From Spirochaetia bacterium (GTDB lineage: Bacteria > Spirochaetota > Spirochaetia > Treponematales > Breznakiellaceae): a stretch of DNA of 10,427 bases. Both the position numbers and the translations under genes were made by a program. The notes beneath the pieces are model-generated. The model had not been told where the DNA came from. It made no database searches and worked only from the letters and a program-made list of their open reading frames with translations. This document shows positions 1-10,427 of the stretch, piece after piece (within the stretch, counting starts at the first letter, position 1; the number at the start of each line of letters is the position of its first letter). The stretch is from NCBI GenBank assembly GCA_025997755.1, contig BNVA01000064.1, positions 1 through 10,427 of the forward strand, read 5' to 3'.

Positions 1-33
1 CCGTCTTCTGCTTGAAAAAAAAAAAAAAAAAAA
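1..33 (-). other. Illumina P7 adapter end plus poly-A read-through
   Basis: Bases 1-14 are the reverse complement of CAAGCAGAAGACGG, the 5' end of the Illumina P7 flow-cell oligo, and are followed directly by 19 A residues. An adapter end running into poly-A is what is seen when a sequencer reads past a short insert and off the adapter. These bases are not from the organism. Confidence 0.95.
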
Positions 34-218
34 CCCCTGGAATCCCAACAACTTACCCCCCCTTCTACTCCACCTTCCCTCTTCAGAAAAAAAAAAGAAA
101 AAACAAATATGAATAAACAGATTAACACAAAAGTTAAAATTGATAACTCGCTCAAAGAGCATAAAAAAAAATAATACTGACCAAAGTTATAAAGCGCATA
201 CTGCCCTTAAGGAAGATA
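34..218. other. Low-quality contig tip, no gene supported
   Basis: Bases 34-86 are C-rich with only 3 G in 53 bases, unlike the rest of the locus, and look like the noise bases that follow adapter and poly-A in a read. Bases 87-103 are nearly all A, which could have joined such reads to genuine AT-rich sequence. Bases 180-218 still resemble the downstream part of the permease in frame, with stops. A 21-codon frame (ATG at 109) is low-complexity and lysine-rich, and I do not consider it a gene. The mirrored copy is 10210-10394. Confidence 0.6.
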
Positions 219-455
219 TTAAATACCTCGCATGTAAATCTCCGCAAAGTACGCCGCGTAGTTTAAAACAAATGAAATAATAACCGCCGTAAAACGATTG
301 TAAGATAACAATGTTCTGATAACAGTCCAAAAAGCTTCCGATAAAACTATATTTGAAAGTGAATCATACAAAAATGAATAAAGATATTTAGGCGCAAAGT
401 AAATAAAGATAAGCTGCAGGATAAGCGGCGTGCCTCGCATAATAAGCAAATACAA
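219..455 (-). pseudogene. Polar amino-acid ABC transporter permease, fragment (HisM/GlnP type)
   Basis: This is the inner-membrane permease subunit of an ABC importer for polar amino acids, of the family that forms the channel together with an ATPase and a solute-binding protein. The family hallmark RGTPLILQLIFIYF (residues 7-20) and the later NYAAYFAEIYMRGI (65-78), the start of the region that contacts the ATPase, are clear, with hydrophobic segments between. It is 78 residues where the family has about 215-250: the first transmembrane segment is missing at the TTG 'start', and a TAA follows RGI. Beyond that stop the same frame reads Y-L-P-stop-G-Q-Y, keeping the exact spacing of the family's GIxSIPKGQY, so the frame continues to about base 180 with two stops (219-221 and 207-209). 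This is either decay or errors near the contig tip. The 5' end abuts ORF6N head to head with no promoter space. Confidence 0.75.
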
Positions 456-458
456 AAC

Positions 459-947
459 ATGATCTACACGGTGCGCGATTACAAAATCATGCTTGACAGC
501 GACTTATCACGGCTCTACGAGGTTGAGACAAAGGTTTTGAATCAAGCGGTTAAACGTAATATTGAACGCTTCCCGTCAGATTTTATGTTCCGGTTAACCG
601 ACGAGGAATGGCTAACTTTAAGGTCACATTCTGTGACCTTTAGCAATGACAGCCGAAAATATAAGCCTTACGCTTTTACCGAACACGGTATTTTGATGTT
701 ATCCAGCGTCTTAAAAAGCCCCATTGCATCAGACATAAATATCCAGATAATGCGGATTTTTGTCAAAATGAGGCATTATTGGCTTAAACAAACCGATACA
801 AGCGACCAGATCGCTGAATTGCGTAAATTGCTTATGCTTTATATCGAAAAAAATGATAAACGTGTAAACAATGTAATAATTGCATTGAACAATCTGCTTG
901 AGAGTCCGCCGCCACCGAAAAAAACCATAGGATTTAGGATGGACTAG
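459..947 (+). CDS. ORF6N-domain protein
   Basis: This is a predicted DNA-binding protein of the ORF6N family, common in phages, mobile islands and many gut bacteria; its cellular role is mostly unknown. The domain spans about residues 2-110, with characteristic stretches YKIMLDSDLSRLYEVETK, LNQAVKRNIERFPSDFMFRLT and YAFTEHGILMLSSVL, followed by a helical linker (about 115-147) and a proline-rich tail ending in KKTIGFR, also typical of the family. Family members usually have some 8-15 residues before the I-Y-T segment; here the ATG comes one codon before it and there is no Shine-Dalgarno sequence. The frame stays open upstream to 378 with no better start, so the true N-terminus is probably lost at a join near 445-460. 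Its stop codon touches the stop of pyrE on the other strand (0 bp between them). Confidence 0.85.
   Translation: MIYTVRDYKIMLDSDLSRLYEVETKVLNQAVKRNIERFPSDFMFRLTDEEWLTLRSHSVTFSNDSRKYKPYAFTEHGILMLSSVLKSPIASDINIQIMRIFVKMRHYWLKQTDTSDQIAELRKLLMLYIEKNDKRVNNVIIALNNLLESPPPPKKTIGFRMD
620..640. repeat. 9-bp perfect dyad inside the ORF6N gene
   Basis: Bases 620-628 (AAGGTCACA) are the exact reverse complement of 632-640, separated by TTC. The element lies in codons for L-R-S-H-S-V-T-F within the ORF6N domain. It has no following T-run and so is not an intrinsic terminator. It may be chance or a codon-level constraint. The mirrored copy is 9788-9808. Confidence 0.6.
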
Positions 948-1979
948 CTACAACTTTCGGGAGCCGGGTTTTACAAAAGGAATACCCTGTTTACAAAGCT
1001 CACAGTCGTTTTTGTCGAAGTTTGACGCGCTCACCTTTGCCGATGCGTATAACGGCAGTTCAAGCGTTATGTTTTTTTCCCTGCGGTCTACAACGCAGGC
1101 TATAGCCTGCGTTTTTGCGCCCGCCGCTTCCAGCACGGCAATGCTTTCAAGCGAAGATTTTCCTGTTGTTACGACATCTTCTGCAATCAGTATATTTTCG
1201 CCTTGACGCACTTCAAAACCGCGCCTAAGACTCATTTTTCCTTCTTCGTTGCGCTCCGTAAAAAATGCCGGAAGCCTTAACAGCCGTCCAAGCTCATAGG
1301 CTACGACAATGCCGCCCATAGCCGGACCTACAACGGCATCAATTTTTGGTAAAACACCAGCCGAAATATCGGCAAGTATTTTATCCGCAACGGGACGCAG
1401 CACTTTTTCCGCACGGTCTGGGTACTGTAAAAGCCTTGCACATTGAAAATACTTGTCCGAGTGTCTGCCGGACGAAAGCAAAAAATGCCCCTCCAGCAAC
1501 GCACCGCATTCTTTTAAGATTGAAACAGTGTCTTCCATGATGAATACCTTAAAATCTTCTTTTATCATAGCCCACATATCTTTTACATTATTTATTAGAG
1601 GATTTAATTGTTCCCAATCTATTTCTGATCCATACGAATGTCGTATAAAATGACGAAAATACAAGTATTTCTCAAGCGGTTCTTTAATTTCTTTTCTTAA
1701 AATATTTTTTCTTTTGTCGTTCTCTATAAATAATGTTTCAAATAGTGCCTTGTGCCATCGAGCATCACTTGGTATTTGTCCATCAATATTTTTTAATACT
1801 ATAAGCGCAATACTTTCTATACCATTGTAGAAAGAGTGTAATAATAACGCTGTCGCAGATGCTATAATAAAATCCGGTTCTTTAATTTTGCAAAGTGTAA
1901 ATAAGGGTTCTGCATCATTGAACAATTTGTCAATACGGGTTATTTCATTGTTTATTTTTTCAACAAGATGGTTATTCAA
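948..1979 (-). CDS. pyrE: HepT-like HEPN toxin domain fused to orotate phosphoribosyltransferase (PyrE)
   Basis: One frame of 343 residues holds two proteins. Residues 1-147 are a HepT-like HEPN domain, a family of RNases paired with MntA: the LLLHSFYNGIE helix (46-55), the W-H pair (75-76) and FRHFIRHSYG with the RX4HXY motif (R109, H114, Y116; tyrosine AMPylated by MntA in characterised systems). Residues 148-343 are a complete OPRT, which converts orotate and PRPP to OMP in pyrimidine synthesis: SSGRHSDKYFQCA (169-181), VVGPAMGGIVVAYELGR (216-232), FTERNEEGKMSLRRGF, the PRPP loop ILIAEDVVTTGKS (263-275) and tail CELCKQGIPFVKPGSR. A free PyrE has about 190-200 residues, exactly the length from M148. 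The start is TTG with strong AGGTGAGG nine bases upstream. The toxin half is AT-rich (28% G+C in one 60-base sample) and the PyrE half is not (48%), suggesting transfer of the toxin module to the pyrE 5' end. HEPN RNase activity and an intact fusion are inferred. Confidence 0.93.
   Translation of the reverse strand: MNNHLVEKINNEITRIDKLFNDAEPLFTLCKIKEPDFIIASATALLLHSFYNGIESIALIVLKNIDGQIPSDARWHKALFETLFIENDKRKNILRKEIKEPLEKYLYFRHFIRHSYGSEIDWEQLNPLINNVKDMWAMIKEDFKVFIMEDTVSILKECGALLEGHFLLSSGRHSDKYFQCARLLQYPDRAEKVLRPVADKILADISAGVLPKIDAVVGPAMGGIVVAYELGRLLRLPAFFTERNEEGKMSLRRGFEVRQGENILIAEDVVTTGKSSLESIAVLEAAGAKTQAIACVVDRREKNITLELPLYASAKVSASNFDKNDCELCKQGIPFVKPGSRKL
1092..1113. repeat. 22-bp perfect palindrome inside pyrE
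   Basis: The 11 bases AACGCAGGCTA at 1092-1102 are followed immediately by their exact reverse complement at 1103-1113. They encode K-T-Q-A-I-A-C-V-V around residues 289-297 of the fusion, a conserved OPRT stretch. The symmetry ends at 1091/1114. No function is evident; the mirrored copy is 9315-9336. Confidence 0.7.
1536..1550 (-). promoter_or_regulatory. Candidate internal start for free PyrE (ATG with weak AAGG site)
   Basis: On the minus strand, AAGG (1547-1550) lies eight bases before an ATG (1536-1538) that is codon 148 of the fusion. This is exactly where OPRT homology begins (MEDTVSILKECGALLEGHF). The original pyrE start could therefore still produce a normal-length enzyme in addition to the fusion. 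The ribosome site is weaker than that of the toxin. The mirrored copy is 8878-8892. Confidence 0.5.
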
Positions 1980-2268
1980 TTTCTACAACCTCACCTAATT
2001 TATTGAGGAGTGAATATAAATTAGTGTCGCGGTCGAAATCAACAAAATCAAAATCATTTTCTAAGGTCATATATAACTTTCCTCCGGCGGAAAAAAATTT
2101 ATCAGGCGGCAAACCTTTAACACCAATGTCTATATCAGAATATTCATTGGTATTTCCTGTAACTATTGAACCGAAAAGGAAAACAGAAGAACACCCTTCA
2201 TTTTTTAGAAATTCTACAGCATATTTAATATCATTACGATATTTGTTAGGGATATTCTCTAAAGTCAT
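1972..2268 (-). CDS. mntA: MntA-type nucleotidyltransferase antitoxin
   Basis: This 98-residue protein is a minimal nucleotidyltransferase of the MNT/KNTase-fold group. The signature FLFGSIVTGNTNEYSDIDIGV (about 30-50) gives GSX10DXD with G33-S34, D45 and D47, and a likely third metal-binding aspartate at D77 in FDFVDFD. In characterised MntA-HepT pairs such an enzyme transfers AMP from ATP to the toxin's tyrosine in RX4HXY and so silences the RNase; the partner motif is present in the adjoining gene. Length is normal for the family (about 95-140). The gene is promoter-proximal and its last 8 bases overlap the TTG of the toxin frame, the usual antitoxin-first order. The ATG at 2266-2268 has no Shine-Dalgarno sequence and sits at the expected transcription start of the promoter upstream, so it may be read leaderless. 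Composition is AT-rich, like the HepT half. Confidence 0.88.
   Translation of the reverse strand: MTLENIPNKYRNDIKYAVEFLKNEGCSSVFLFGSIVTGNTNEYSDIDIGVKGLPPDKFFSAGGKLYMTLENDFDFVDFDRDTNLYSLLNKLGEVVEIE
1977..1996 (-). promoter_or_regulatory. Ribosome binding site and TTG start of the HepT-PyrE frame
   Basis: AGGTGAGG (1989-1996, minus strand) is nine bases upstream of TTG at 1977-1979. The site lies inside the last codons of mntA, and the TTG overlaps the mntA end by 8 bases, so toxin translation is probably coupled to antitoxin translation. The strength of this site supports the TTG start over any later ATG. The mirrored copy is 8432-8451. Confidence 0.75.
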
Positions 2269-2352
2269 AATAGGATTTTACATTCCCTATTACTTTTTTT
2301 CAATCACCGTGATCACTACACAAACTACGCCGGATTTGATACAATTTAGGAA
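2269..2352. promoter_or_regulatory. Divergent intergenic region between mntA and galM
   Basis: This is an 84-base gap between divergently transcribed genes, so it should carry promoters in both directions. The minus-strand one is listed separately. For galM, TACAAT (2340-2345) is a -10-like hexamer but has no good -35 at the right distance. AGGAA directly touches the galM ATG, too close for a normal Shine-Dalgarno site. The mirrored copy is 8076-8159. Confidence 0.5.
2275..2303 (-). promoter_or_regulatory. Sigma-70-type promoter for mntA-hepT-pyrE
   Basis: On the minus strand, TTGAAA (2298-2303) is followed after exactly 17 bases by TAAAAT (2275-2280), close to the consensus -35 and -10. Transcription would begin about six or seven bases after the -10, which places it on or next to the ATG of mntA at 2268. 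That leaves no room for a leader and no ribosome site is visible. The mirrored copy is 8125-8153. The small dyad ATCAC-C-GTGAT (2303-2313) touches the -35 and could be an operator, but it is short. Confidence 0.55.
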
Positions 2353-3372
2353 ATGAAAATTACACGAAAAACATTCGGGACGCTTTCCAACGGTAAAAAG
2401 ACTCATTTGCTTATTTTGAGCGCCGGGGATTTGCGGCTCTGTATAAGTGAATACGGCGCGGCGTGGACGGAACTTCTTGTTCCATCTGCCAAAGGTGAGC
2501 GCGATGATATTTTATTGGGATACTCCACATTGCAGGGTTATACGCAAAAGGGTTATTTCGGGGCGACCATAGGGCGGTTTGCAAATCGTGTAAATGACGG
2601 CAAGTTTACGCTTGACGGTTGTGAGTACAACCTGCCAAAGAACAACGGAAAAAATAGTCTGCATGGCGGCAGGCATGGTTTTGACAAAAGATTGTGGAAA
2701 GGCGAGGCTTACAAAGACAATGGCGAAATTTTTGCCCGTTTCGAGCTTGATAGTCCAGATGGTGATGAGGGGTACCCGGGTCATCTGCACGCCGTTGTTA
2801 CTTATGGTTTAACGAAAGCAAACGAGGTGATTGCCGAATACAAGGCGACCGTGGATAAAAATTGTCCTGTGAATTTGACAAATCACGCTTATTTTAATCT
2901 TGCGGGCGAAGGAAACGGCAAGATTCTGGATCACGAGCTAAAACTTTTTTCATCAAGCTATATTCCGGTCGATAAAACTTTAATTCCCACAGGCGAGATT
3001 CTGCCGGTTAAGGGTACGCCTTTTGATTTTACAAGCCGCAGGGCGATAAACGCGGTAACGGCGGATAACGGCTATGATCACTGTTTTGTGATTGACGGCG
3101 AATTTGGAAATCTGCGTCCGGCGGCGGAAGTGTTTGAAAGAGAATCCGGCAGAACGATGCATTTATTTACAACTCAACCCGGTTTGCAGTTTTATGCTGG
3201 CGGCAGTATTACGGAAACTCTTGGAAAGGACGGCGCGGTTTACGGAGCGAATTCCGGTTTTTGCCTTGAGACTCAGCACTACCCCGATTCCCCAAATCAA
3301 CCTTCTTTTCCCAGCACTATTTTTGGACCGGAGCGCGACTATAACGAAAAAACGGTATATACTTTTAATTAA
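2353..3372 (+). CDS. galM: Aldose 1-epimerase (mutarotase)
   Basis: This cytoplasmic enzyme interconverts the alpha and beta anomers of glucose, galactose and related sugars, feeding the Leloir pathway and glycolysis. All key regions are present in a full-length 339-residue protein: GATIGRFANRVNDGKF (70-85), NSLHGGRHGFDKRLW with H104, the acid H178 in VNLTNHAYFNLAG, D242 in YDHCF, GLQFYAGG (277-284) and the catalytic base E306 in FCLETQHYPDSPNQ. These positions match the well-studied lactococcal enzyme closely. The ATG at 2353 gives the normal family N-terminus. There is no signal peptide. It is the first gene of a tight plus-strand run, followed after 5 bases by argH; the functions are unrelated, so shared transcription is inferred from spacing only. 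Confidence 0.95.
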   Translation: MKITRKTFGTLSNGKKTHLLILSAGDLRLCISEYGAAWTELLVPSAKGERDDILLGYSTLQGYTQKGYFGATIGRFANRVNDGKFTLDGCEYNLPKNNGKNSLHGGRHGFDKRLWKGEAYKDNGEIFARFELDSPDGDEGYPGHLHAVVTYGLTKANEVIAEYKATVDKNCPVNLTNHAYFNLAGEGNGKILDHELKLFSSSYIPVDKTLIPTGEILPVKGTPFDFTSRRAINAVTADNGYDHCFVIDGEFGNLRPAAEVFERESGRTMHLFTTQPGLQFYAGGSITETLGKDGAVYGANSGFCLETQHYPDSPNQPSFPSTIFGPERDYNEKTVYTFN

Positions 3373-3377
3373 TAGAC

Positions 3378-4790
3378 ATGGACAAAAAAAACGGCTCTAA
3401 AAAAAATAGCGTTCTGTGGGCGGGACGTCTTGCCCGCAAACCTGCCGATGATGCTTTCGCTTTTCAGTCTTCAATCAAGGTTGACGGACGTATGACGAGA
3501 GAAGATATTATGGGCAGCCGCGCCCATGTAAAAATGCTCGGAAAGCAGGGAATTTTACCGGCGGACGATGCACAGTGTATAGACGCGGAGCTTGAAAAAA
3601 TTCAAATTGAGTTGGACGATGGCAGCCTTGAAATCGACTCATCCTATGAAGATATTCACTCGTTTATTGAGGGCGTTTTGACGGATAGGCTGGGAGATGC
3701 CGGACGGGCAGTTCACGCCGGACGCAGCCGTAACGATCAGGTGGCGGTGGATACCCGCCTATATCTAAAACGGCGTACCGACGAGCTTATTGCGGAGCTT
3801 GACGGAACGATCAATGCTATCTTGGATAGGGCAGAGGAGCATACGGAAACTATAATGCCCGGATACACCCACCTGCAAAGAGCGCAGCCGGTAACGCTTG
3901 GCTATCATCTTACCGCATGGGCTTGTGCGCTGCGCCGCGATGAGAGCCGTTTCGCCGATGCAGTACAAAGGTTCGATATCTGTCCTCTGGGCGCGGGAGC
4001 TTTGGCGGGTACTACGCTAGACCTTGACCGCGCTTTTGTTGCGGCGGAACTTGGTTTTTCAGGGGTATCGCTTAATTCGATGGATACCGTAGCCGACCGT
4101 GATTTTGCCGTGGAGCTTGCCGCAGATTGTGCGCTGACGCAGACTCATTTGTCGCGGTTTTGCGAAGATATTGTGATATGGGCGAGTGAAGAATTCAAAT
4201 TTATTGACCTTTCCGAAGAGTGGAGTACCGGTTCGTCGATAATGCCGCAGAAAAAAAATCCCGATTTTGCCGAGCTGATACGGGGCAAGGCAGGACGTAC
4301 AACCGGTAACCTTGTTACCCTCCTCACCCTGTTAAAGGGGCTGCCGTACGCCTACAATAAGGATCTGCAGGAAGACAAGGAAGCGCTTTTCGATAGTCTG
4401 GACACTGTGGAAAATTGCCTGCGTATGTTCGGCGGTATGATTTCAAGCGCCGGTTTTAGGGAGGATCGTATGGCACAGGCTGTAAAAGGCGGCTTTTTGG
4501 AGGCAACCGACGCTGCGGAATATCTTGTAAAGAAAGGTATGCCTTTCCGTACGGCGCACGAAAAAGCCGCACTGCTTGTTCGGGACTGCATTGAGGCGGG
4601 ACAAAATGAACTTTCGCAGAGGACGCTTACACAGTTTAAAGACCGCTCAAGCCTGTTTGAGGATGATGTGTATGCCGCCCTTTCTCCGCTCACCGCCGTC
4701 AAAGCAAGGAAGCTGCCCGGAGGGCCTGCGCCGGAAGAAGTAAGATATCAGATAAAATTGCTGCGCGATAAAATAATTAAGTATTGTTAA
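3378..4790 (+). CDS. argH: Argininosuccinate lyase
   Basis: This enzyme catalyses the last step of arginine synthesis, cleaving argininosuccinate to arginine and fumarate; it works as a cytosolic homotetramer of the fumarase/aspartase superfamily. The superfamily signature GSSIMPQKKNPD (285-296) includes the catalytic flexible-loop serine, and H165 in GYTHLQRAQPV is the conserved histidine. HAGRSRNDQVAVDTRLY (113-129), LWAGRL near the N-terminus and the PLGAGALAGTT segment (203-213) are diagnostic of ArgH rather than fumarase or ASPLs. At 470 residues it is full length (usual 450-475). The ATG at 3378 follows the galM stop by 5 bases with no clear Shine-Dalgarno site, consistent with translational coupling. 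There is no other arg gene in the locus. No broken frame or missing residue was seen. Confidence 0.97.
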   Translation: MDKKNGSKKNSVLWAGRLARKPADDAFAFQSSIKVDGRMTREDIMGSRAHVKMLGKQGILPADDAQCIDAELEKIQIELDDGSLEIDSSYEDIHSFIEGVLTDRLGDAGRAVHAGRSRNDQVAVDTRLYLKRRTDELIAELDGTINAILDRAEEHTETIMPGYTHLQRAQPVTLGYHLTAWACALRRDESRFADAVQRFDICPLGAGALAGTTLDLDRAFVAAELGFSGVSLNSMDTVADRDFAVELAADCALTQTHLSRFCEDIVIWASEEFKFIDLSEEWSTGSSIMPQKKNPDFAELIRGKAGRTTGNLVTLLTLLKGLPYAYNKDLQEDKEALFDSLDTVENCLRMFGGMISSAGFREDRMAQAVKGGFLEATDAAEYLVKKGMPFRTAHEKAALLVRDCIEAGQNELSQRTLTQFKDRSSLFEDDVYAALSPLTAVKARKLPGGPAPEEVRYQIKLLRDKIIKYC

Positions 4791-4802
4791 TACAAAAGTT
4801 TT

Positions 4803-4815
4803 GGAGGAATGTATG
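4803..4815 (+). promoter_or_regulatory. Ribosome binding site deciding the prs start
   Basis: GGAGGA (4803-4808) lies four bases before ATG 4813-4815. A TTG at 4801 in the same frame overlaps this site and would add the residues M-E-E-C; these are the translated ribosome site, not protein. The mirrored copy is 5613-5625. Confidence 0.85.
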
Positions 4816-5364
4816 AGAAATGAATTCGTAGTTACGGCTACACGCTCCATGCGAAGTTACGCGGCAAAGGTTTTGGAATATTTAAAAAAATATACCAGCA
4901 TTGCGTCTAACAAAAGTATTGACGGTATAAACGCGCTTGAGGTAAAAACTTTCGCGGACGGCGAGATGGAGGTTCTTGTCAATATATCGCTGCGCGGAAA
5001 AGATGTTTTTATATTTACAAGCTGTGCAAGAAACGACGCGGGAATAAGCGTAAACGATGCCAGGATAGAGCTTTACCATGCAATTGATGCCTTAAAACGG
5101 TCAAGATGCGAAAAAATCGTTGTTTTTGAACCTTATGTATCTTGCGCCCGTTCCGACCGGCCTATGGACCGCAGCTCCGTGGGACTTTGGGTTCATTTTA
5201 AAAGTATCGTAGAGCTTGGCGCGGGACATATTGTTACATATCAATTACATTCCGATAAATCAAAAGCCATGCTGGACCCTACGCTTTGTCTATTAGACGA
5301 TCTGCCGGCGTTAACTCTTGTAAAAAAATATATCTGCGACAATCACGTTAAGACAGTGGAAAAG
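4813..5364 (+). CDS. prs: Ribose-phosphate pyrophosphokinase (PRPP synthetase), 3'-truncated
   Basis: Prs makes PRPP from ribose 5-phosphate and ATP for purine, pyrimidine, histidine and NAD synthesis; PyrE in this locus consumes PRPP. Residues 1-184 are genuine: the FADGEMEV segment (47-54), RGKDVFIF (61-68), the helix RIELYHAIDALKRS (84-97), the ATP-site loop PYVSCARSDR (107-116, matching YFGYARQDR of standard enzymes) and YQLHSDKS with H146. GLWVHFKS and the long N-terminus differ from the E. coli type and resemble a variant I associate with spirochaetes, from memory. The C-terminal half with the PRPP-binding DD.. loop is absent because the sequence turns back on itself at 5364/5365. The open frame runs on to 5571, but the residues after K184 are antisense prs and not real protein. 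The gene follows argH by 22 bases. Arm-specific residue: A18 (GCA). Confidence 0.9.
5064..5364. other. Unpaired loop between the inverted arms (301 bp)
   Basis: This is the only single-copy part of the window. It is continuous coding sequence of prs on the plus strand, encoding residues 84-184 counted from ATG 4813, with normal PRPP-synthetase content to its last codon. It therefore belongs naturally with the left arm. The false or rearranged join is its right edge, 5364/5365, where the sequence turns back onto the complementary strand at a point 301 bases upstream. Confidence 0.9.
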
Positions 5365-5615
5365 CTGGCATCGTTTACGCTTATTCCCGCGTCGTTTCTT
5401 GCACAGCTTGTAAATATAAAAACATCTTTTCCGCGCAGCGATATATTGACAAGAACCTCCATCTCGCCGTCCGCGAAAGTTTTTACCTCAAGCGCGTTTA
5501 TACCGTCAATACTTTTGTTAGACGCAATGCTGGTATATTTTTTTAAATATTCCAAAACTTTTACCGCGTAACTTCGCATGGAGCGTGTAGCCGTAACTAC
5601 GAATTCATTTCTCAT
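5343..5615 (-). pseudogene. prs: Mirrored prs 5' fragment (83 codons)
   Basis: This is the second pass through the start of prs, from ATG 5613-5615 to about 5365 (residues 1-83). It then runs into the reverse strand of the loop, adding S-F-S-T-V-L-T before a stop. It differs from the left copy at two positions: codon 18 is GTA (V) here and GCA (A) there; codon 19 is AAA here and AAG there. The gene is not independently functional; it is a product of the inversion. Confidence 0.9.
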
Positions 5616-5637
5616 ACATTCCTCCAAAACTTTTGTA

Positions 5638-7050
5638 TTAACAATACTTAATTATTTTATCGCGCAGCAATTTTATCTGATATCTTACTTCTTCCGGCGC
5701 AGGCCCTCCGGGCAGCTTCCTTGCTTTGACGGCGGTGAGCGGAGAAAGGGCGGCATACACATCATCCTCAAACAGGCTTGAGCGGTCTTTAAACTGTGTA
5801 AGCGTCCTCTGCGAAAGTTCATTTTGTCCCGCCTCAATGCAGTCCCGAACAAGCAGTGCGGCTTTTTCGTGCGCCGTACGGAAAGGCATACCTTTCTTTA
5901 CAAGATATTCCGCAGCGTCGGTTGCCTCCAAAAAGCCGCCTTTTACAGCCTGTGCCATACGATCCTCCCTAAAACCGGCGCTTGAAATCATACCGCCGAA
6001 CATACGCAGGCAATTTTCCACAGTGTCCAGACTATCGAAAAGCGCTTCCTTGTCTTCCTGCAGATCCTTATTGTAGGCGTACGGCAGCCCCTTTAACAGG
6101 GTGAGGAGGGTAACAAGGTTACCGGTTGTACGTCCTGCCTTGCCCCGTATCAGCTCGGCAAAATCGGGATTTTTTTTCTGCGGCATTATCGACGAACCGG
6201 TACTCCACTCTTCGGAAAGGTCAATAAATTTGAATTCTTCACTCGCCCATATCACAATATCTTCGCAAAACCGCGACAAATGAGTCTGCGTCAGCGCACA
6301 ATCTGCGGCAAGCTCCACGGCAAAATCACGGTCGGCTACGGTATCCATCGAATTAAGCGATACCCCTGAAAAACCAAGTTCCGCCGCAACAAAAGCGCGG
6401 TCAAGGTCTAGCGTAGTACCCGCCAAAGCTCCCGCGCCCAGAGGACAGATATCGAACCTTTGTACTGCATCGGCGAAACGGCTCTCATCGCGGCGCAGCG
6501 CACAAGCCCATGCGGTAAGATGATAGCCAAGCGTTACCGGCTGCGCTCTTTGCAGGTGGGTGTATCCGGGCATTATAGTTTCCGTATGCTCCTCTGCCCT
6601 ATCCAAGATAGCATTGATCGTTCCGTCAAGCTCCGCAATAAGCTCGTCGGTACGCCGTTTTAGATATAGGCGGGTATCCACCGCCACCTGATCGTTACGG
6701 CTGCGTCCGGCGTGAACTGCCCGTCCGGCATCTCCCAGCCTATCCGTCAAAACGCCCTCAATAAACGAGTGAATATCTTCATAGGATGAGTCGATTTCAA
6801 GGCTGCCATCGTCCAACTCAATTTGAATTTTTTCAAGCTCCGCGTCTATACACTGTGCATCGTCCGCCGGTAAAATTCCCTGCTTTCCGAGCATTTTTAC
6901 ATGGGCGCGGCTGCCCATAATATCTTCTCTCGTCATACGTCCGTCAACCTTGATTGAAGACTGAAAAGCGAAAGCATCATCGGCAGGTTTGCGGGCAAGA
7001 CGTCCCGCCCACAGAACGCTATTTTTTTTAGAGCCGTTTTTTTTGTCCAT
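5638..7050 (-). CDS. argH: Argininosuccinate lyase, mirrored copy
   Basis: The 470-residue protein is identical to that at 3378-4790, with the same GSSIMPQKKNPD signature and conserved H165. It should be treated as the same gene read on the opposite strand of the inverted repeat and not as a paralogue. Confidence 0.93.
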   Translation of the reverse strand: MDKKNGSKKNSVLWAGRLARKPADDAFAFQSSIKVDGRMTREDIMGSRAHVKMLGKQGILPADDAQCIDAELEKIQIELDDGSLEIDSSYEDIHSFIEGVLTDRLGDAGRAVHAGRSRNDQVAVDTRLYLKRRTDELIAELDGTINAILDRAEEHTETIMPGYTHLQRAQPVTLGYHLTAWACALRRDESRFADAVQRFDICPLGAGALAGTTLDLDRAFVAAELGFSGVSLNSMDTVADRDFAVELAADCALTQTHLSRFCEDIVIWASEEFKFIDLSEEWSTGSSIMPQKKNPDFAELIRGKAGRTTGNLVTLLTLLKGLPYAYNKDLQEDKEALFDSLDTVENCLRMFGGMISSAGFREDRMAQAVKGGFLEATDAAEYLVKKGMPFRTAHEKAALLVRDCIEAGQNELSQRTLTQFKDRSSLFEDDVYAALSPLTAVKARKLPGGPAPEEVRYQIKLLRDKIIKYC

Positions 7051-7055
7051 GTCTA

Positions 7056-8075
7056 TTAATTAAAAGTATATACCGTTTTTTCGTTATAGTCGCGCTCCGG
7101 TCCAAAAATAGTGCTGGGAAAAGAAGGTTGATTTGGGGAATCGGGGTAGTGCTGAGTCTCAAGGCAAAAACCGGAATTCGCTCCGTAAACCGCGCCGTCC
7201 TTTCCAAGAGTTTCCGTAATACTGCCGCCAGCATAAAACTGCAAACCGGGTTGAGTTGTAAATAAATGCATCGTTCTGCCGGATTCTCTTTCAAACACTT
7301 CCGCCGCCGGACGCAGATTTCCAAATTCGCCGTCAATCACAAAACAGTGATCATAGCCGTTATCCGCCGTTACCGCGTTTATCGCCCTGCGGCTTGTAAA
7401 ATCAAAAGGCGTACCCTTAACCGGCAGAATCTCGCCTGTGGGAATTAAAGTTTTATCGACCGGAATATAGCTTGATGAAAAAAGTTTTAGCTCGTGATCC
7501 AGAATCTTGCCGTTTCCTTCGCCCGCAAGATTAAAATAAGCGTGATTTGTCAAATTCACAGGACAATTTTTATCCACGGTCGCCTTGTATTCGGCAATCA
7601 CCTCGTTTGCTTTCGTTAAACCATAAGTAACAACGGCGTGCAGATGACCCGGGTACCCCTCATCACCATCTGGACTATCAAGCTCGAAACGGGCAAAAAT
7701 TTCGCCATTGTCTTTGTAAGCCTCGCCTTTCCACAATCTTTTGTCAAAACCATGCCTGCCGCCATGCAGACTATTTTTTCCGTTGTTCTTTGGCAGGTTG
7801 TACTCACAACCGTCAAGCGTAAACTTGCCGTCATTTACACGATTTGCAAACCGCCCTATGGTCGCCCCGAAATAACCCTTTTGCGTATAACCCTGCAATG
7901 TGGAGTATCCCAATAAAATATCATCGCGCTCACCTTTGGCAGATGGAACAAGAAGTTCCGTCCACGCCGCGCCGTATTCACTTATACAGAGCCGCAAATC
8001 CCCGGCGCTCAAAATAAGCAAATGAGTCTTTTTACCGTTGGAAAGCGTCCCGAATGTTTTTCGTGTAATTTTCAT
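7056..8075 (-). CDS. galM: Aldose 1-epimerase, mirrored copy
   Basis: The 339-residue protein is identical to that at 2353-3372, including H104, H178, D242 and E306. It is the same gene repeated by the inverted-repeat structure. Confidence 0.92.
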   Translation of the reverse strand: MKITRKTFGTLSNGKKTHLLILSAGDLRLCISEYGAAWTELLVPSAKGERDDILLGYSTLQGYTQKGYFGATIGRFANRVNDGKFTLDGCEYNLPKNNGKNSLHGGRHGFDKRLWKGEAYKDNGEIFARFELDSPDGDEGYPGHLHAVVTYGLTKANEVIAEYKATVDKNCPVNLTNHAYFNLAGEGNGKILDHELKLFSSSYIPVDKTLIPTGEILPVKGTPFDFTSRRAINAVTADNGYDHCFVIDGEFGNLRPAAEVFERESGRTMHLFTTQPGLQFYAGGSITETLGKDGAVYGANSGFCLETQHYPDSPNQPSFPSTIFGPERDYNEKTVYTFN

Positions 8076-8124
8076 TTCCTAAATTGTATCAAATCCGGCG
8101 TAGTTTGTGTAGTGATCACGGTGA

Positions 8125-8153
8125 TTGAAAAAAAGTAATAGGGAATGTAAAAT
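8125..8153 (+). promoter_or_regulatory. Promoter of mntA-hepT-pyrE, mirrored copy
   Basis: TTGAAA (8125-8130), 17 bases, TAAAAT (8148-8153), then the mntA ATG at 8160. Same site as 2275-2303, easier to read here because it is on the plus strand. Confidence 0.55.
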
Positions 8154-8159
8154 CCTATT

Positions 8160-8456
8160 ATGACTTTAGAGAATATCCCTAACAAATATCGTAATGATAT
8201 TAAATATGCTGTAGAATTTCTAAAAAATGAAGGGTGTTCTTCTGTTTTCCTTTTCGGTTCAATAGTTACAGGAAATACCAATGAATATTCTGATATAGAC
8301 ATTGGTGTTAAAGGTTTGCCGCCTGATAAATTTTTTTCCGCCGGAGGAAAGTTATATATGACCTTAGAAAATGATTTTGATTTTGTTGATTTCGACCGCG
8401 ACACTAATTTATATTCACTCCTCAATAAATTAGGTGAGGTTGTAGAAATTGAATAA
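8160..8456 (+). CDS. mntA: MntA-type nucleotidyltransferase antitoxin, mirrored copy
   Basis: The 98-residue protein is identical to that at 1972-2268, with the GSX10DXD nucleotidyltransferase signature. Its TAA (8454-8456) lies inside the first codons of the toxin frame, which starts at TTG 8449. Confidence 0.86.
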   Translation: MTLENIPNKYRNDIKYAVEFLKNEGCSSVFLFGSIVTGNTNEYSDIDIGVKGLPPDKFFSAGGKLYMTLENDFDFVDFDRDTNLYSLLNKLGEVVEIE

Positions 8457-9480
8457 CCATCTTGTTGAAAAAATAAACAATGAAATAACCCGTATTGACA
8501 AATTGTTCAATGATGCAGAACCCTTATTTACACTTTGCAAAATTAAAGAACCGGATTTTATTATAGCATCTGCGACAGCGTTATTATTACACTCTTTCTA
8601 CAATGGTATAGAAAGTATTGCGCTTATAGTATTAAAAAATATTGATGGACAAATACCAAGTGATGCTCGATGGCACAAGGCACTATTTGAAACATTATTT
8701 ATAGAGAACGACAAAAGAAAAAATATTTTAAGAAAAGAAATTAAAGAACCGCTTGAGAAATACTTGTATTTTCGTCATTTTATACGACATTCGTATGGAT
8801 CAGAAATAGATTGGGAACAATTAAATCCTCTAATAAATAATGTAAAAGATATGTGGGCTATGATAAAAGAAGATTTTAAGGTATTCATCATGGAAGACAC
8901 TGTTTCAATCTTAAAAGAATGCGGTGCGTTGCTGGAGGGGCATTTTTTGCTTTCGTCCGGCAGACACTCGGACAAGTATTTTCAATGTGCAAGGCTTTTA
9001 CAGTACCCAGACCGTGCGGAAAAAGTGCTGCGTCCCGTTGCGGATAAAATACTTGCCGATATTTCGGCTGGTGTTTTACCAAAAATTGATGCCGTTGTAG
9101 GTCCGGCTATGGGCGGCATTGTCGTAGCCTATGAGCTTGGACGGCTGTTAAGGCTTCCGGCATTTTTTACGGAGCGCAACGAAGAAGGAAAAATGAGTCT
9201 TAGGCGCGGTTTTGAAGTGCGTCAAGGCGAAAATATACTGATTGCAGAAGATGTCGTAACAACAGGAAAATCTTCGCTTGAAAGCATTGCCGTGCTGGAA
9301 GCGGCGGGCGCAAAAACGCAGGCTATAGCCTGCGTTGTAGACCGCAGGGAAAAAAACATAACGCTTGAACTGCCGTTATACGCATCGGCAAAGGTGAGCG
9401 CGTCAAACTTCGACAAAAACGACTGTGAGCTTTGTAAACAGGGTATTCCTTTTGTAAAACCCGGCTCCCGAAAGTTGTAG
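8449..9480 (+). CDS. pyrE: HepT-like HEPN toxin fused to PyrE, mirrored copy
   Basis: The 343-residue fusion is identical to that at 948-1979. On this strand the domain boundary can be read directly: the HEPN part ends around 8889 and the ATG at 8890-8892 begins the OPRT part. The absence of any stop between the domains is the same on both arms, but since the arms probably derive from the same reads this is not independent confirmation. Confidence 0.9.
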   Translation: MNNHLVEKINNEITRIDKLFNDAEPLFTLCKIKEPDFIIASATALLLHSFYNGIESIALIVLKNIDGQIPSDARWHKALFETLFIENDKRKNILRKEIKEPLEKYLYFRHFIRHSYGSEIDWEQLNPLINNVKDMWAMIKEDFKVFIMEDTVSILKECGALLEGHFLLSSGRHSDKYFQCARLLQYPDRAEKVLRPVADKILADISAGVLPKIDAVVGPAMGGIVVAYELGRLLRLPAFFTERNEEGKMSLRRGFEVRQGENILIAEDVVTTGKSSLESIAVLEAAGAKTQAIACVVDRREKNITLELPLYASAKVSASNFDKNDCELCKQGIPFVKPGSRKL

Positions 9481-9969
9481 CTAGTCCATCCTAAATCCTA
9501 TGGTTTTTTTCGGTGGCGGCGGACTCTCAAGCAGATTGTTCAATGCAATTATTACATTGTTTACACGTTTATCATTTTTTTCGATATAAAGCATAAGCAA
9601 TTTACGCAATTCAGCGATCTGGTCGCTTGTATCGGTTTGTTTAAGCCAATAATGCCTCATTTTGACAAAAATCCGCATTATCTGGATATTTATGTCTGAT
9701 GCAATGGGGCTTTTTAAGACGCTGGATAACATCAAAATACCGTGTTCGGTAAAAGCGTAAGGCTTATATTTTCGGCTGTCATTGCTAAAGGTCACAGAAT
9801 GTGACCTTAAAGTTAGCCATTCCTCGTCGGTTAACCGGAACATAAAATCTGACGGGAAGCGTTCAATATTACGTTTAACCGCTTGATTCAAAACCTTTGT
9901 CTCAACCTCGTAGAGCCGTGATAAGTCGCTGTCAAGCATGATTTTGTAATCGCGCACCGTGTAGATCAT
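9481..9969 (-). CDS. ORF6N-domain protein, mirrored copy
   Basis: The 162-residue protein is identical to that at 459-947, with the same missing extreme N-terminus and head-to-head abutment with the permease fragment. Confidence 0.83.
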   Translation of the reverse strand: MIYTVRDYKIMLDSDLSRLYEVETKVLNQAVKRNIERFPSDFMFRLTDEEWLTLRSHSVTFSNDSRKYKPYAFTEHGILMLSSVLKSPIASDINIQIMRIFVKMRHYWLKQTDTSDQIAELRKLLMLYIEKNDKRVNNVIIALNNLLESPPPPKKTIGFRMD

Positions 9970-9972
9970 GTT

Positions 9973-10209
9973 TTGTATTTGCTTATTATGCGAGGCACGC
10001 CGCTTATCCTGCAGCTTATCTTTATTTACTTTGCGCCTAAATATCTTTATTCATTTTTGTATGATTCACTTTCAAATATAGTTTTATCGGAAGCTTTTTG
10101 GACTGTTATCAGAACATTGTTATCTTACAATCGTTTTACGGCGGTTATTATTTCATTTGTTTTAAACTACGCGGCGTACTTTGCGGAGATTTACATGCGA
10201 GGTATTTAA
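9973..10209 (+). pseudogene. Amino-acid ABC transporter permease fragment, mirrored copy
   Basis: Identical to the fragment at 219-455. Here the decayed continuation can be read on the plus strand: TAA 10207-10209, TAT CTT CCT, TAA 10219-10221, GGG CAG TAT, which keeps the register of the family's G-I-x-S-I-P-K-G-Q-Y. Homology then fades toward the adapter-bearing tip. Confidence 0.73.
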
Positions 10210-10394
10210 TATCTTCCTTAAGGGCAGTATGCGCTTTATAACTTTGGTCAGTATTATTTTTTTTTATGCTCTTTGAGCGAGTTATCAATTTTAACTTTTG
10301 TGTTAATCTGTTTATTCATATTTGTTTTTTCTTTTTTTTTTCTGAAGAGGGAAGGTGGAGTAGAAGGGGGGGTAAGTTGTTGGGATTCCAGGGG

Positions 10395-10427
10395 TTTTTT
10401 TTTTTTTTTTTTTCAAGCAGAAGACGG
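10395..10427 (+). other. Mirrored Illumina P7 adapter end plus poly-T
   Basis: Nineteen T residues followed by CAAGCAGAAGACGG form the exact mirror of bases 1-33. The presence of the same adapter at both tips shows that the contig was produced by traversing one assembled path on both strands. Confidence 0.95.

Follow-up and report, generated by a model that had tools for sequence, protein, structure and literature searches.

Contig BNVA01000064.1 of a spirochaete genome assembly (GCA_025997755.1), analysed here over its full 10,427 nt (hereafter the window), reads as one sequence followed by its own reverse complement, and the question that it raises is whether this symmetry belongs to the genome or was introduced on the way to the assembly. 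Our analyses indicate that the contig is, in all likelihood, a 5-kb stretch of spirochaete chromosome written forwards and then backwards, an artefact that reflects no real genome structure. Very probably, a fold-back chimera formed in the tube, during either amplification or library preparation, was then doubled by assembly.

Layout and gene content of the window

Self-comparison showed positions 1–5063 and 5365–10427 to be reverse complements, matching at 5061 of 5063 positions with partner coordinates adding to 10428, and separated by a single-copy gap of 301 nt (5064–5364). The single inverted repeat with ~5-kb arms and a 301-bp loop proposed in the first-pass annotation was thus borne out, with coordinates that were exact. 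Chance pairing of the arms is excluded, since shifting their register by 1–5 positions either way gave only 26–31% identity. Among the ORFs of at least 80 aa (n = 20), 18 fall into nine mirrored pairs with coordinates adding to 10428; this sum, previously claimed for all genes, holds at the starts only for the remaining two, the prs frames, because these enter the loop. We take the left arm (1–5063, + strand) to be native except for its tip, the loop (5064–5364, + strand) to be native prs coding sequence, and the right arm (5365–10427, − strand) to be an artefactual mirror of 1–5063.

The two mismatches between the arms (4865–4869, + strand), which the first-pass annotation did not mention, are C at 4865 versus T at its partner 5563, and G at 4869 versus A at 5559; they lie 199 and 195 nt from the loop respectively, the inner two positions being 690 nt apart through it. 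In prs, the first exchanges Ala and Val and the second is silent (Lys). Both are transitions, 4 nt apart, in this gene. Since 26 of the 119 listed Prs relatives have Ala at the changed residue and one has Val, the left-arm (Ala) form appears likelier, if unproved, to be the older.

One arm carries genes for an ORF6N-domain protein (459–947, + strand), a HepT-like/PyrE frame (948–1979, − strand; mirrored at 8449–9480, + strand), a small nucleotidyltransferase (1972–2268, − strand; 31.1 bits with the MntA model, below its cut-off of 60), galM (2353–3372, + strand) and argH (3378–4790, + strand), followed by the start of prs (4813, + strand). For Prs, ArgH and PyrE, the closest named relatives among the listed matches were mostly from Treponema, Spirochaetaceae, Spirochaetia or Termitinemataceae, with best identities among these matches, the window's own proteins aside, of 73% for Prs and 88% for ArgH. 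A tRNA scan of the whole window and an Rfam scan of 1–5400 gave no match.

Two further observations concern this gene content. In the 948–1979 frame, a HepT-like toxin-family domain (residues 42–147) reads stop-free and in frame into PyrE, whose own ATG lies directly after that domain, and the MntA-like gene is just upstream. Among the best 120 of 7995 matches, in which HepT-only proteins were too short to be candidates, the window's own protein alone combined HepT-like and PyrE parts; a real fusion, translational coupling or a lost stop may underlie this arrangement. The other is a stop-free piece of 77 residues (237–467, − strand) with stops on both sides, which adjoins the ORF6N gene, presumably resembles the core of an amino-acid ABC transporter permease and may be a pseudogene. 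The permease resemblance found no support in a Pfam search of the piece, which returned only a chance match (0.35), while a PDB sequence search returned 7awy_A ('Scone-R'; E 6.2e-06), in which no single stretch passed by itself, and a further match at 0.75.

The turn within prs

The prs gene starts with ATG at 4813 and runs for 184 codons to 5364 (4813–5364, + strand), after which it departs from its relatives. We aligned its product with 119 listed relatives (P0002–P0120, the best of 984 matches, with the window's own protein left out), and the frame aligned with them up to 5364, loop included. The left edge of the loop (5063/5064) is therefore native and only 5364/5365 is a new junction, the sole one in the window. 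Past this point, the listed relatives have a short variable stretch, then W (118 of 119) and AFCSVDAGG, a block lost in the window, where the reverse complement of the window's own 5′ part replaces the conserved C-terminal half of Prs. Earlier placement of the turn within prs, with the gene broken at the right edge of the loop after codon 184, was accordingly confirmed by the alignment.

What the two joined sequences had in common at the turn can be bounded on both sides. To the left, the overlap stops immediately: the last three letters of the loop are AAG, and those of the mirrored strand would be ATC. To the right, the first letters of the arm are CTGG (5365–5368, within a junction region of 5360–5370, + strand). 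CTG encodes Leu, found in all 119 listed relatives, and the next residue is Glu, with codons beginning with G, in 104 of them, where the window also has G, in GCA (Ala). Probably, then, CTGG was present both in the native continuation of prs and in the new template, as a microhomology of 3–4 nt judged from protein relatives at most 73% identical rather than from native DNA. A Leu codon followed by G occurs by chance at 67 of 5060 arm positions, and among 200,000 random fold-backs drawn from the window sequence 0.5% shared at least 4 bases in that direction. The overlap would therefore seem to be ~4 nt, its left bound being read directly and its right bound from the Prs relatives. Loop and arms have one 12-mer position in common and no 14-mer. 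Because the overlap of native and mirrored sequence at the turn seems so short, a join by k-mer overlap is unlikely, and the turn therefore most likely existed as a physical chimeric molecule, a fold-back chimera from which reads most likely cross it.

We also searched for an intact native locus. A scan of genome contigs with the Prs part, by a method suited to close relatives, returned a single locus, 33% identical, in an Aureispira MAG; megablast of 1–5364 against phages and plasmids gave no match, and neither did an exact search of IMG/VR with one 30-mer from the loop. Neither a second copy of the organism's locus nor its intact prs was thus found among the listed proteins, genome contigs, phages, plasmids and IMG/VR.

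Adapter sequence at both tips

Both tips of the window consist of CCGTCTTCTGCTTG (14 bases), then 19 A and then noise, and are exact mirror images (1–102, + strand, inner border approximate; 10326–10427, − strand). The 14-base motif matches, in reverse complement, the first bases of a P7-type primer printed in the available text of PMC5119831, and we assign it to the end of the Illumina P7 adapter. Non-biological sequence is thus mirrored at the two ends, as expected when assembly duplicates one edge, and the first-pass claim that the arms reach the contig ends, adapter included, stands, with poly-A and noise to be added. The presence of a one-off junk read end at both tips indicates that one assembled edge was printed twice; arm length and symmetry follow from this, and a 5-kb duplication is therefore not shown. 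Once a read has passed the end of its insert and crossed the adapter, it continues into poly-A and noise. For the inward orientation of the tips in the window, our guess is that the genome letters were then supplied by the signal of a neighbouring cluster.

As a control, we searched IMG/VR for the adapter plus poly-A motif and found it 73 times in 71 loci, in many of which index-adapter letters precede it. None of the 71 was palindromic (over 100 self-complementary 31-mers along a single diagonal, judged for 15 of them on the parts of longer contigs that they represent), versus 9996 such 31-mers in the window. Adapter-junk tips are therefore a common leftover, with no mirrored tips seen in this set, and their mirroring needs an extra cause, namely a chimeric turn. 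The motif read outwards in 67 of the 73 occurrences, 64 of these less than 200 nt from the locus end, and inwards in only six, two of them less than 200 nt from an end. It reads inwards in the window, which counts against an origin in a fold-back chimera that was then doubled in assembly. The search also shows, in its own right, that 71 public viral loci (L002–L072) retain an Illumina adapter end with poly-A; four occurrences lie deep within their locus (L016, L040, L045 and L054) and may mark false joins.

Origin of the inverted contig

The earlier suggestion of a chimera or an assembly artefact is supported by these data, its two causes falling in different layers, the first accounting for the turn and the second for the symmetry of the arms. 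In the tube, a strand being synthesized across prs would have detached once past about codon 185, paired again through ~3–4 bases (CTGG with CCAG) with a neighbouring strand lying 301 nt back, and then been extended in the opposite direction, which gives a fold-back (inverted) chimera. In the computer, we infer that a short-read assembler held one native 5-kb edge ending in an adapter-contaminated junk read, and that chimeric reads would have taken it across the loop and then over that edge again in reverse, which would account for the double printing of this edge. The two differences between the arms need a further assumption, and to that extent count against this explanation: two alleles in the sample, or amplification error, would do, with one form taken up on each pass of the assembler.

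As the setting of the first layer we lean towards multiple displacement amplification (MDA). In the accessible part of PMC1855051, 406 of 475 MDA chimeras were inverted, 337 of these with segments less than 10 kb apart, and 93.5% of the inverted chimeras below that distance had complementary bases at the junction. The window is like them in its inverted second segment, which lies within 10 kb across a loop of 301 nt, and probably in having a few complementary bases at the join; it is unlike them in being an assembler-doubled contig from DNA that may have been amplified, whereas theirs, as far as that text goes, were found in ~100-nt reads after single-cell amplification of E. coli. Palindromic reads after whole-genome amplification, as covered in excerpts of PMC6218980 and PMC13265396, likewise consist of a strand and then its reverse complement, but as long reads, unlike a contig with short-read adapter tips. 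According to the same portion of PMC6218980, Illumina paired-end data contain amplification palindromes in only few reads; a chimera that dominates an Illumina contig would then be an unusual outcome, which again counts against the explanation that we favour. Among the papers listed by our literature searches we saw none on mirrored short-read contigs, which does not show that no such paper exists.

The MDA mechanism proposed at first pass therefore fits the published features of inverted chimeras but is indistinguishable here from a fold-back in library preparation, in which single-stranded fragment ends pair with themselves or with a similar fragment at end repair. The contig would still be an artefact, and we regard this origin of the turn as the main alternative, possible though rather unlikely. 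The consulted sections of PMC10908179 describe reads that are part original and part reverse complement, after sonication as well as enzymatic fragmentation; an insert a few hundred bases long would suffice, with assembly prolonging the arms. Such fold-backs resemble the window in that a strand is turned back on its complement, but in what is available of PMC10908179 and PMC12870357 they occur where inverted or palindromic sequence already exists, or, in long reads, with a second segment no more than 200 bp away. The chimeras of PMC10908179, on the portion seen, arise at genomic inverted repeats or palindromes; the loop of 301 nt and the inferred homology of ~4 nt set the window apart from these and place it nearer to MDA.

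An assembly artefact with no chimeric molecule behind it, in which overlapping k-mers or a gap wrongly closed send the path back, is improbable. A graph path back through its own reverse complement, as raised in the first-pass annotation, does explain the mirrored junk tips, which indicate that the assembler printed one edge twice, but not the turn itself, where shared sequence ends at the first base to the left and apparently after ~4 nt to the right. A k-mer join of at least 20 bases would mean that native prs also specified the mirrored residues, in contrast to the listed relatives, and we rejected a pure k-mer join on the ~4-nt overlap and the lack of any 14-mer common to loop and arms.

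Less probable still is a real inverted duplication, present in part of the spirochaete population with slightly diverged arms around the prs loop and generated by template switching in replication. The two differences between the arms, at 4865/4869 versus 5563/5559, would suit it, and in vivo fold-back is expected to give the same kind of junction. Against it, the tips are sequencing adapter, so that a long duplication is not shown; the contig holds only broken prs, a gene generally taken as essential; and no independent copy was found in genome contigs, phages, plasmids or IMG/VR. Some spirochaetes (Borrelia) possess hairpin telomeres, and the closest named Prs, ArgH and PyrE relatives among the listed matches are mostly spirochaetal, but a replicated hairpin end is expected to be a palindrome without a loop, and with a 301-nt single-copy loop at its centre, within a coding gene, we rejected a hairpin telomere dimer of a linear replicon as scarcely credible.

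Implications

A fold-back chimera doubled by assembly has consequences for the use of this contig. Left uncorrected, it leads to galM, argH, pyrE and their neighbours being counted twice, and to a false Prs fusion protein of 252 aa, already present in the protein collection that we searched (P0001); it is also open to misreading as a palindrome or a telomere. A simple check is available: when the two tips of a palindromic contig carry mirrored adapter junk, its symmetry is at least partly computed. This practical warning is the main value of the finding.
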